NCBI RefSeq assembly: GCF_001485575.1 | Contig: NZ_BCNB01000002.1 | Span: forward strand, 186,001 to 250,000 | Origin: Haloarcula sp. CBA1127 | GTDB taxonomy: Archaea > Halobacteriota > Halobacteria > Halobacteriales > Haloarculaceae | Length of the DNA stretch: 64,000 nt | Reading direction: 5' to 3' | Program-made: the position numbers and the translations under genes | Shown: piece by piece, positions 38,321 to 42,222 of the stretch | Position numbering within the stretch: the stretch's first letter is position 1 | Layout: each line of letters begins with the position of its first letter | The notes under the pieces: generated by a model | Told to the model about the DNA's origin: nothing | Database searches by the model: none | The model's input: only the letters and a program-made list of their open reading frames with translations

Positions 38321-38844
38321 ACCGCCGGCAGGTCGTTGCGGCGATGACCGGGCTCGGCCTCACCGGCGGAAGTCTCTGGGTTGCCCAGAATGGGTTATCG
38401 GGTATCCAACCGCGGGACACAGACCAGCTTCCGGTTCGCGTTGAGACGCTCGATGCACGCGGCTCGTCGGCAGGCGAAACAGCCGTGCCGACGCCGGGAA
38501 CCGTCACGGTAGTCGACCTCTTCGCTACGTGGTGTGCACCCTGTGACGACCAGCTCCGGATACTAAACGCGATGCAGCCCGAGTACGCTGACGTGTCGTT
38601 CGTCTCAGTGACGAACGAGCGGCCCAGCGAGACATTAACGAGGGCTGACATCAGCGAGTGGTGGAACCGGAACGGCGGTGCCTGGACTGTCGGCCTTGAC
38701 CCCGGCAGCGAGTTGCTGGCGGCACTTGGGGCGGACGGACTCCCGTACATCGCGATTACTGACGAAAGCGGGACCGTCCAGTTCGGCCACAGTGGGCTTG
38801 CCGGGGAAGAGACGCTTCGAGACGAACTCGACGCACTGGTGTGA
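38317..38844 (+). CDS. Exported TlpA/ResA-like thioredoxin-fold protein
   Basis: The protein has 175 residues. The GTG start overlaps the stop of the sco gene by four bases. A signal-like hydrophobic segment (AAMTGLGLTGGSLWVAQNG) follows an RR pair. The thioredoxin active site is FATWCAPCDDQL (C73 and C76), and the cis-proline region is LPYIAITDESG. It would keep the cysteines of the copper or haem partner reduced, with electrons supplied by CcdA. Its position directly in front of ccdA supports this partner role. Confidence 0.82.
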   Translation: MNRRQVVAAMTGLGLTGGSLWVAQNGLSGIQPRDTDQLPVRVETLDARGSSAGETAVPTPGTVTVVDLFATWCAPCDDQLRILNAMQPEYADVSFVSVTNERPSETLTRADISEWWNRNGGAWTVGLDPGSELLAALGADGLPYIAITDESGTVQFGHSGLAGEETLRDELDALV

Positions 38845-38845
38845 G

Positions 38846-39505
38846 ATGGCCGGAGCTGCCGTACTCGGGACACTTGCATTCGCCGCGGGCGCAGGCATCA
38901 CGACGTTTTTCGCGCCGTGTGCGTTCCCGCTTCTCCCGGGGTACATCGGGTACTACATGAACGAGAGCGATCGGGATGTCGGTATGCTACCACCTGCCAC
39001 TGCCGCTGCTGGCGGGGCGCTTGTCGCGCTTACCCTCGTCGCGCTGCTCGTCCTCGCACTCGGGCAGCCACTGAAAAACGCACTCCCGATGCTCGAACCG
39101 GTGATCGGACTCGGTCTGATCGCGTTCGGCGTCGTGATGCTCCTGAACAGGGAGCCCGAACTCCGCGTCCCGTTACCAGCACGACCGGCATCCGTAACCG
39201 GATTCGGTGTGTTCGGGGCTGTGTACGCGGTCGCTGCAGCGGGCTGTGTCGTGCCGCTGTTCTTCGGTGTGGTCTCCCAGGCTCTCGCATTGCCAGTCCG
39301 CGCAAGCGTTCTCGTACTGGCGGTGTACGCGCTCGGGGTCGCGCTTCCGCTCGTGGGTGTGACACTCCTTGCGGGCGTTGGAATCAGTCTCTGGCGCACC
39401 TTCGGAAAGTACCTGCAACGGATACACCAGATCGCAGCCGTCGTGATGATACTCGCCGGCGGCGGACAGATTTACCTCGCAGTGTTCGAACTCGGCGTGG
39501 TGTAG
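38846..39505 (+). CDS. CcdA-type cytochrome c biogenesis / thiol-disulfide membrane protein
   Basis: This 219-residue protein with six hydrophobic segments belongs to the CcdA/DsbD-beta family. The conserved cysteine-proline pair is FAPCAFPLLPGYIGYY near residue 25, and the second cysteine lies in VAAAGCVVPLFFG near 131. These cysteines carry electrons from thioredoxin through the membrane to the TlpA-like protein encoded just before. It is one base from the upstream stop and closes the operon. The start at 38846 is tight after the TGA. Confidence 0.85.
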   Translation: MAGAAVLGTLAFAAGAGITTFFAPCAFPLLPGYIGYYMNESDRDVGMLPPATAAAGGALVALTLVALLVLALGQPLKNALPMLEPVIGLGLIAFGVVMLLNREPELRVPLPARPASVTGFGVFGAVYAVAAAGCVVPLFFGVVSQALALPVRASVLVLAVYALGVALPLVGVTLLAGVGISLWRTFGKYLQRIHQIAAVVMILAGGGQIYLAVFELGVV

Positions 39506-39667: not shown

Positions 39668-39697
39668 CTCATCGGCACGTAGGAATAGGTATGAATG

Positions 39698-39819
39698 GTG
39701 GCGGCGAACCGGATTTCCCAGAGGCTCGCGCACTCCAGTACTCCCCGGAACGCTGGCGGGCTTATCTTCCGTGTTCGGGATGGGTACGGGAGGCAACCCC
39801 GCCGCTGTGGCCGCCTGTA
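39698..39819 (-). rRNA. rrf: 5S ribosomal RNA, solitary copy
   Basis: On the minus strand the sequence contains the haloarchaeal 5S landmarks in order: AGGCGGCCACAGCGGCGGGG, then CCCGTACCCATCCCGAACAC, GGAAGATAAGCCCGCC, and GTACTGGAGTGCGCGAGCCT, then CTGGGAAATCCGGTTCGCCG. The two ends pair (GGCGGCCAC with its complement at the other end). Ends are set to about 122 bases by the helix. No 23S end lies upstream and no tRNA-Cys downstream. A TATA-like CTTATAAGTG lies about 25-32 bases before the 5' end. Haloarchaeal operon copies, as I remember them, differ at a few positions, for example CCTGCG and GGTCAG where this has CCAGCG and GGGGAG. Confidence 0.88.
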
Positions 39820-39838
39820 TGATATTTCTCTTGGCCAC

Positions 39839-39852
39839 ACTTATAAGCGTAG
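39839..39852 (-). promoter_or_regulatory. TATA-like box of the solitary 5S gene
   Basis: Plus strand CACTTATAAGCG, read on the minus strand as CGCTTATAAGTG, is a near-perfect archaeal TATA element. Its spacing to the 5S 5' end (about 25-30 bases) is right for TBP/TFB-driven initiation directly at or near the mature end. This argues for independent transcription. No upstream BRE was assigned with certainty. The rest of 39853-40037 shows only a hairpin at 39959-39978 (CCGCCGA...TCGGCGG). Confidence 0.55.
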
Positions 39853-40037
39853 CTACTTGGAGACAAGAACTACCCGAACGTAGTTCGGCCGCTTAATAGC
39901 ACAGCATCGAAGGCCGCACGATATGACTCGGTTTGGCGCTCTGTTTCAGAGTCCTGACCCGCCGACCATGATCGGCGGTGTCGGAGAGATTTGGGGTTTC
40001 GCTACGATCCTGGCGGGTACAGAACGCAGCTAGCCGC

Positions 40038-40655
40038 TCACTCAAACCGGCCGTTGAAGACGATTTTGTCCAGCGGCTTCCGACTGCTCGGCTCTTCTCG
40101 CTCTTTCAGGTCGTCAGGTAGCGTCTCGGGGTCGGCGCGCTCACCGACAGCGACCATCGCTTCGGCGTCGAATTCGTCTTCGGGGACGCCCAGAGTGTCG
40201 TGAATTCGGTCCCAGTCGAAGCCTGCCATTGGATGAACAGCCAGATCGCGCCGAGTGCCTTCGAGAGCGAGATTCTGCCACGCAGCGCCGGTATCGAAAG
40301 AGCGCGTCACAGCAGGTTCGCCGTTGTGGTCGAGTGTGACCTTCGAGAAGACGGCGATAAGTGCGCCGGCGTCGCGTGCCCAGGAGCGGTTGGCTTCGTT
40401 CAGCAGACCGAGGAAGGCGTCCCACTCGTCGTCTTCGCGGGTGGCGTAAACAAACCGCCAGTGCTGATTGTTGAACGCGGACGGGGCCCAGCGTGCGGCT
40501 TCAAACAACGAATGGAGGTCATCGTTAGCGAGCGAGTCACCAGTCATCGCACGCGGTGACCAGCGATTGACAAAGAGCGGGTCGACGTTGTGGACCGGGT
40601 CACGGTGTTGAGCAACTTCGTCGTCAAGATTGTGGCCGATATTCGTCTGCGACAT
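40038..40655 (-). CDS. Nitroreductase-family oxidoreductase
   Basis: This is a 205-residue FMN-dependent enzyme. The N-terminus VNRWSPRAMTGDSLANDDLH is the family's RxSxR-type FMN phosphate site, followed by LFEAARWAPSAFNNQHWRFV. Later come GAAWQNLALEGTRRDLAVHP and GVPEDEFDAEAMVAVG, matching the C-terminal dimer part. It would use NAD(P)H to reduce nitro or quinone compounds. The start at 40655 lies right after AT-rich ATATATAATG; a TATA-like ACATAAGCG lies about 30 bases further. Confidence 0.85.
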   Translation of the reverse strand: MSQTNIGHNLDDEVAQHRDPVHNVDPLFVNRWSPRAMTGDSLANDDLHSLFEAARWAPSAFNNQHWRFVYATREDDEWDAFLGLLNEANRSWARDAGALIAVFSKVTLDHNGEPAVTRSFDTGAAWQNLALEGTRRDLAVHPMAGFDWDRIHDTLGVPEDEFDAEAMVAVGERADPETLPDDLKEREEPSSRKPLDKIVFNGRFE

Positions 40656-40896
40656 TATATATCGTCGTTCGGTTCCCACGCTTATGTACTTCTGGCAACA
40701 TAAATACAATCAGGTGACATCGATGTTATCTTCGGGTAATTATCAAAGGATATGGCATGAGATAGCACAGATCTATACAGCCGATTAAACCAGGGCGCGA
40801 CCGCTATCGTATATTCCAAATGGACACATCAGAATCAGTTTACTCGGATCAGAATCGAGGATTGCGTTTGAATTGCGACTATACCCAGAGAGCTGA

Positions 40897-42222
40897 TCAG
40901 CGACCAGACGAAGGGACGCCGAGTGAGACGCCGGCAAGGAAGATTGGCAGGCCACCGATCGCAACAGCGGCAGCGCTGGCCGTTGCCACGGGAATGAAAA
41001 GCACGCCCAGCCCAAACGGCGCAGGCAGTATTGGGAGGACCGGCAGCATCGACAGCACGAACCCGATGGCGGCCGTCTTCATCGCCAGCCGGCGGTTCCC
41101 GTGGCCGACTGCGTACCCGGCCGGGAGAAGCACAAACGCAGGTCCAAGAACCAACAGCGTTGACACCGGGAACGTGAACCCATCTCCGACAACCATCGGC
41201 GCCGCCGCTATCGTCACTCCGAGCGCGATGCCCGCGCCGACTACTGCGCCGCCAACGACCGCCCGATAGCTTGTGCGCTCACGGACACGCTGCTGAGAAA
41301 GGGCTATTCCACACACGAACAGCGCGGTGCCACCGCCGAACAGCGGTGCTGCTGTGCCACCCAGCCGTATAACGCCCGCCGCTCCGAGAAGCGACAGGAC
41401 AGCCGCCAGCGCGCCGACGCCGGCGAATACGATGCCCGCGGAGTCTCGGACTTGTTTCAAATCCCAATCAAGCCAGTCAACGCCCCCGGCAGCAGCGCCG
41501 ATCAAGAGGGTAAACACCGCTGCGGGGAGCGTGATGTATGCGAGCGCCTTCATCGCCATCACGGGACCGAGAAGTGTTCCGACCGCGAGTAGACTCAACA
41601 GCGGCCCAATGGCCGTATTCTGGGGAACGAACGTCACAACACGCCCGTCGTTGAGTTCGGTCAGCGTCATCCGCTGTCCGTCGTCTGAGAGGGTTGCACC
41701 GTCGATGGACCTCCCGACCCGCATTCCATCGGGAGCCACGACGACAAGCCGGTCAGCACCGAGGCCATCGAGGTTTCGATAGCCGTAGGCTTCAGTAAAC
41801 TCGCCAGTTCGGACCGTCCCACCGACGGACTGCTGGGCGAAGTCAGCCTCGCGGTAGCGTAGCGTTATGACGCCATCGCCGGAAACATTTGCGCTCAGGA
41901 GTTCGGTGTCCCACATCGCCCTGTCGGCGATAGCGGTCCGGAGGCTCTCGTTTGCTCGAAGCCGTGCAACACCTTCTGCGTTAGACAGACGATTGTGGAC
42001 GACCCACGTCGCGCTTCCGTTGTTGTTGACGGCGACGGTTGCATTGCTGTGTGTGACAGTGACCGACACACCATGAGACTCGGCCGTCGATTCAAAGGTG
42101 TCTCCGCAGGCGTCACACAGCGGCCGCGGTGGGGGCGCTGCGCCAGCGGGCATGGCGATACAGAGGAGCGACGCACAGACCAGACAGAGGAGGGCAAGGT
42201 GGTGGAGTCGATGCGGGGCCAT
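40897..42222 (-). CDS. Secreted-domain / multipass membrane protein of unknown function
   Basis: The protein has 441 residues. A signal peptide (LALLCLVCASLLCIAMPAGA) is followed by CDACGD with two cysteines. A beta-rich extracellular domain runs to about residue 195 (VTVTHSNATVAVNNNGSATW, RYREADFAQQSVGGTVRTGE). At least seven transmembrane helices fill the C-terminal 230 residues. No enzyme motif is visible. It could be a surface sensor or exporter component. It is a single gene between the nitroreductase and a short hypothetical frame. Confidence 0.6.
   Translation of the reverse strand: MAPHRLHHLALLCLVCASLLCIAMPAGAAPPPRPLCDACGDTFESTAESHGVSVTVTHSNATVAVNNNGSATWVVHNRLSNAEGVARLRANESLRTAIADRAMWDTELLSANVSGDGVITLRYREADFAQQSVGGTVRTGEFTEAYGYRNLDGLGADRLVVVAPDGMRVGRSIDGATLSDDGQRMTLTELNDGRVVTFVPQNTAIGPLLSLLAVGTLLGPVMAMKALAYITLPAAVFTLLIGAAAGGVDWLDWDLKQVRDSAGIVFAGVGALAAVLSLLGAAGVIRLGGTAAPLFGGGTALFVCGIALSQQRVRERTSYRAVVGGAVVGAGIALGVTIAAAPMVVGDGFTFPVSTLLVLGPAFVLLPAGYAVGHGNRRLAMKTAAIGFVLSMLPVLPILPAPFGLGVLFIPVATASAAAVAIGGLPIFLAGVSLGVPSSGR

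Follow-up and report, generated by a model that had tools for sequence, protein, structure and literature searches.

A stand-alone 5S rRNA gene with its own TATA box in one clade of Haloarcula

In Haloarcula sp. CBA1127, we confirmed a 5S rRNA gene that stands alone, apart from the rRNA operons, and that is preceded by its own TATA box. This orphan is probably a functional, independently transcribed gene, whose transcription would start at its own mature 5' end. In the textbook view, haloarchaea obtain their rRNAs in equal supply from a single operon, and Haloarcula marismortui is the source of the classic structure of the 50S subunit. A conserved extra 5S gene that is found throughout a clade, set apart by its promoter and not by its product, is a natural experiment on two questions: whether 5S rRNA ever becomes limiting, and whether ribosomes take up a 5S RNA with a primary 5' end that tRNase Z has not processed.

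The window, that is the whole stretch of 64,000 nucleotides that was analysed, lies on a contig (C2) of 385,856 bases, in a genome of 4.36 Mb and 9 contigs. The orphan occupies positions 39696..39818 of the minus strand (the initial annotation gave no strand), with nucleotide (nt) 1 of the mature RNA at 39818 and nt 122 at 39697, as placed in an alignment of the 50 operonic and 14 orphan copies. It matches Rfam family RF00001 over its full length (positions 1-120; E 2.4e-16) with 83.7 bits against a gathering score of 38, in line with the claim that all landmarks of a 5S rRNA are present, and it is the sole Rfam match in the window at the gathering threshold. Throughout the 64 kb, neither 23S nor 16S rRNA was detected by Rfam at this threshold and no tRNA by ARAGORN, which bears out its description as an orphan without 23S or tRNA around it. 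Elsewhere in the genome there are four other 5S genes (84.4-84.5 bits), each adjoining a 23S gene, and four 16S genes, none of them on C2; the orphan is thus a real, fifth 5S gene.

Upstream of the gene, the TATA-like CTTATAAG that the initial annotation had placed at initiation distance (39840..39847, minus strand) holds TTATA at -28..-24, counted from mature nt 1. Among the 14 orphan copies found in the genus, CTTATA is invariant, TTATA always begins at -28, and the distance to nt 1 is fixed. Around this box, a conserved block from -46 to -14 (39832..39864, minus strand) aligns without gaps in the 14 genomes at a mean pairwise identity of 82% (-46..-37) to 84% (-36..-14), compared to 44% at -70..-47 and 50% at -13..-3. 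On the other side, identity is 98% within the 5S, 71% over +124..+133 and 44% over +134..+153, again without gaps. The putative transcription start (39818..39819, minus strand) is a T at -1, found in all 14 orphans, followed by a purine at +1, the mature nt 1, which is A in 13 and G in one of them; nt 1 is T in each of the 50 operonic copies. The canonical haloarchaeal BRE, CGAAA according to the available text of PMC4983044, is absent before the orphan TATA box.

Selection thus appears, from this pattern of conservation, to hold the promoter. Gene conversion from the operons could help to keep the orphan body intact but not the promoter or nt 1, because the operons lack these features. We rejected the idea that the promoter is common to the rRNA operons, since three of the four operons of this genome contain neither CTTATA nor TAGCTAC in the 1500 bases before 16S, and the fourth contains a single CTTATA at -959 and no TAGCTAC. 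A wider regulon of near-identical promoters was likewise rejected: the own genome holds one match at no more than three mismatches, and a shorter motif at no more than one mismatch gave 9 matches versus 18 for its reversed control. At the stringency used, the promoter motif is unique in the genome.

Whether the same locus occurs in relatives was a check proposed with the initial annotation, and the outcome was positive. Among 32 Haloarcula genomes, 15 loci carry a 5S gene away from both 23S and contig ends, none of them adjoined by a 23S tail, and 14 of the 15 share the upstream block of the window; the same orphan is hence present in 14 of the 32 genomes. In 12 of these it keeps a conserved place next to the same upstream neighbour family, represented in the window by a conserved hypothetical protein (40897..42222, minus strand) that served as synteny marker. 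A thirteenth genome (G016) retains a 45-residue piece of this neighbour just upstream of the orphan, and in the remaining one (G023) the neighbour is on another contig. The local context in the window further comprises a nitroreductase family gene upstream (40038..40709, minus strand; Pfam PF00881, E 1e-19) and, downstream and convergent, a CcdA-type protein (38678..39505, plus strand), which had no match in Pfam and is named after the CcdA annotation of its counterpart in the same gene order on pNG700.

A tree was built for 30 genomes (G017 and G006 were left out) from 1797 bases of the gene for RNA polymerase B'. In it, all 14 genomes with the orphan fall on one side of a branch with a support of 100/100, and the orphan was found in none of the 16 others. 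One gain, with no loss seen, is the simplest history consistent with this tree. A promoter search of 17 genomes, 16 without the shared orphan plus G023, returned a match without mismatches in G023 only and matches with two mismatches in three others. Over 195 genomes of the order, all 9 sampled Haloarcula matched the promoter pattern with 0-2 mismatches, and four genomes outside Haloarcula matched at three mismatches only. A contig scan matched 9 stretches, 6 of them from Haloarcula (six further species) and 3 unrelated, and close plasmid matches came from H. marismortui, H. hispanica, H. sinaiiensis and Haloarcula sp. CBA1115. In the laboratory species H. marismortui (record pNG700) and H. 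hispanica the orphan sits on a megaplasmid, and pNG700 is described as collinear with pHH400 in the part available of PMC3528665. The locus tags of pNG700 skip RR_RS02515 exactly at the position of the 5S; as RNA genes are absent from that feature table, an annotation of the 5S probably exists there already. The 5S genes on four further plasmids of haloarchaea, each adjoined by a 23S tail, are operonic.

A stand-alone 5S could also be a decaying 3' remnant of an rRNA operon that was lost from the megaplasmid. No other rRNA gene lies near the orphan, as such a relic would have it, and relics do occur in the genus: the fifteenth locus, in G007 (L054 7982-8098; G007:C5:135376-135497), is 89.8% identical to an operonic copy, lacks both 23S and the conserved promoter, and is probably decaying; it was not counted among the 14 orphans. 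The orphan, however, is intact in all 14 genomes of the clade while its flanks diverge, its upstream block is not operon spacer, and the constraint on its body equals that on operonic 5S: over nt 3-121, the 14 orphans are 97.9% identical to one another and the 25 operonic copies from this clade 98.2%, so that selection would act on both about equally. The loss of internal pairing that would mark a pseudogene was looked for in the alignment and not seen. We rejected a relic on this conservation and regard it as highly improbable.

As the initial annotation had it, only a few positions differ from the operon sequence: alignment with the operonic copies of the same genome gave four differences from those on contig C6, at nt 1 (T>A), 2 (T>C), 18 (T>C) and 62 (A>G), and five from those on C4, where nt 108 (T>C) is added. 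Because nt 18 and 62 pair with each other, their change is compensatory, reading C-G in the orphans of the window and of H. marismortui and T-A in their operonic copies. No orphan has lost pairing beyond what is seen in operonic copies, which supports the claim that pairing is kept; for the end helix this needs refinement, as nt 1-3/120-122 form no standard pairs in the orphans, nor in most operonic copies.

The initial annotation had further proposed a variant 5S that serves a minority of ribosomes, and this half of the idea was not supported. Between the 14 orphans and the 50 operonic copies of the genus, nt 1 is the sole fixed difference; no position of the body separates the two pools, and most body differences are polymorphisms that also occur in operonic copies. 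Letters private to orphans are few and are found at nt 13 and 41 (both unpaired) and, at the ends, at nt 2 and 122. A specialised 5S marking a distinct class of ribosomes would accord with C41T in two genomes, H. marismortui among them, and A13C in one, and with the divergent rRNA operons for which Haloarcula is known (PMC5368182, available text). Since no body nucleotide is common to the orphans against the operonic copies, we rejected this as the main role and assign it a small probability. The sequences favour the other half of the proposal, a buffer of 5S supply, as the better reading.

This comparison covers 50 operonic copies of the genus. Copies cut by contig ends (L055, L056, L070, L071, L073 and L083), the gapped or cut copies of G005 (L107-L109), loci outside the genus (L110-L119) and weak or partial matches at contig ends were left out; L101, with 75 bases of contig ahead of its 5S, was nevertheless included. 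Operonic 5S copies of G005 that seemed broken were rejected as such, being N gaps in the assembly.

Operonic copies also differ from the orphan in what precedes them. A T-loop-like GGTTCGANTCC stands 11-12 nt upstream of the 5S in all 50 operonic copies and before none of the 14 orphans, which have the TATA box instead. According to Holzle et al. 2008, as cited in the available text of PMC3296008, tRNase Z acts on a tRNA-like structure in Haloferax volcanii to form the 5' end of 5S rRNA, and GGTTCGANTCC fits, by analogy, such a tRNase Z site. When folded, the operonic T-arm segment does not exceed its shuffles in stability (z -0.19), so that this tRNA-like element rests on motif and position. 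For H. volcanii, no transcription start was reported at the operonic 5S genes (PMC4983044, available part). With the T-loop-like element missing and the TATA box spaced for initiation at nt 1, we infer that the orphan transcript begins as mature 5S with a 5' triphosphate.

The mechanism that we propose would run as follows. The TATA box at -28..-24 would be bound by TBP and TFB, and transcription by RNA polymerase would start at mature nt 1, where a purine at +1 follows the T at -1, so that the primary transcript would be 5S RNA at its 5' end from the outset, bearing a 5' triphosphate. Operonic 5S has to be released from a long precursor, which in haloarchaea is done by tRNase Z at an upstream tRNA-like element; the orphan would bypass both the operon promoter and this cut. 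In this way, 5S-protein complexes and 50S subunits would receive ordinary 5S RNA from an added source that could be controlled separately. At the other end, the 3' flank TTCATACCT (39687..39695, minus strand) has the same letters in the operonic copies of this genome, lies in the region of 71% identity among the 14 orphans (+124..+133), and may direct 3' processing or termination. Transcription, the exact start, 3' end formation, incorporation into ribosomes and the supply role are all deduced from sequence, and the presence of the promoter in all sampled close relatives suggests that 5S supply is separately controlled.

The promoter has a further property that hints at dedicated control, namely a dyad centred on the TATA box. 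A symmetry scan detected half-sites GCYAC and GTRGC around it (39834..39853, no strand assigned), with a centre at -25.5 that is the most symmetric of the half-integer centres tested (66% versus a mean of 26%). Read on either strand, the promoter core fits the pattern with 0 mismatches. The half-sites of G027 have exchanged their T and C variants, which fits since both half-sites would read as GCYAC on opposite strands; the right half-site is broken in G023. The dyad stem folds well in the window sequence (z -2.3). We rejected the idea that it serves as a hairpin for processing a read-through transcript: inner pairs are lost in several relatives, and TTATA and its spacing are invariant. The symmetry would suit a dimeric regulator or an unusual contact of TFB with either side of the TATA box. 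More speculatively, and with considerable doubt on our part, GCYAC-N-CTTATA-NNN-GTRGC might be the operator of a dedicated regulator, by which this one Haloarcula clade would have uncoupled 5S supply from 16S/23S synthesis and would switch it under a particular condition. As the same pattern is found on both strands (39834-39853), transcription both ways, antisense to the nitroreductase gene, is conceivable.

A separate promoter with a dyad over its TATA box would also suit a regulatory or decoy RNA, for example a 5S acting in trans or titrating uL5/uL18, whose main use would not be in the ribosome. All features of a 5S are nevertheless under the same constraint as in the operons, which ribosomal use would predict, and nothing points to another target; we consider such a role very unlikely and retain a supply of ordinary 5S RNA as the preferred reading.

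Compared with operonic 5S of Haloarcula and other haloarchaea (16S-tRNA-Ala-23S-5S), the orphan agrees in sequence, in pairing and in the immediate 3' flank. Crenarchaea as a rule have unlinked 5S genes that are transcribed separately, and such genes also occur in Thermoplasma (PMC8339473, available text); like the orphan these have their own promoter, but they are the normal source of 5S, whereas in the euryarchaeon Haloarcula the operons are intact and the orphan is an additional copy. Among bacteria, the stand-alone, expanded 5S of Desulfallas gibsoniae is also outside the operon, which, as far as the available part of PMC7812874 describes it, keeps the front region typical of the regular 5S genes of that organism and is believed incapable of proper binding to the subunit, in contrast to the different promoter and ordinary body of the Haloarcula orphan. 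Orphan 5S rRNA is furthermore a subject of two papers on Francisella, as judged from their listing. The available text on H. hispanica gives three operons, each with a 5S gene, and mentions no orphan (PMC5368182). Within the freely accessible literature that could be searched, no description was found of an orphan 5S in Haloarcula or of a 5S on pNG600 (queried in place of pNG700) or pHH400.

Next to the orphan, some observations were made on operonic 5S genes. Two of the four rRNA operons of this genome lie in the same orientation on C4 (163.5 kb), about 154 kb apart. Some haloarchaeal rRNA operons carry tandem 5S pairs about 190-200 bases apart (L116 889-1193, minus strand; L119 13-319; L198 3808-4117, on a plasmid of N. 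bangense), and in L119 the second 5S is again preceded by a T-loop-like element, GGTTCGATTCC.
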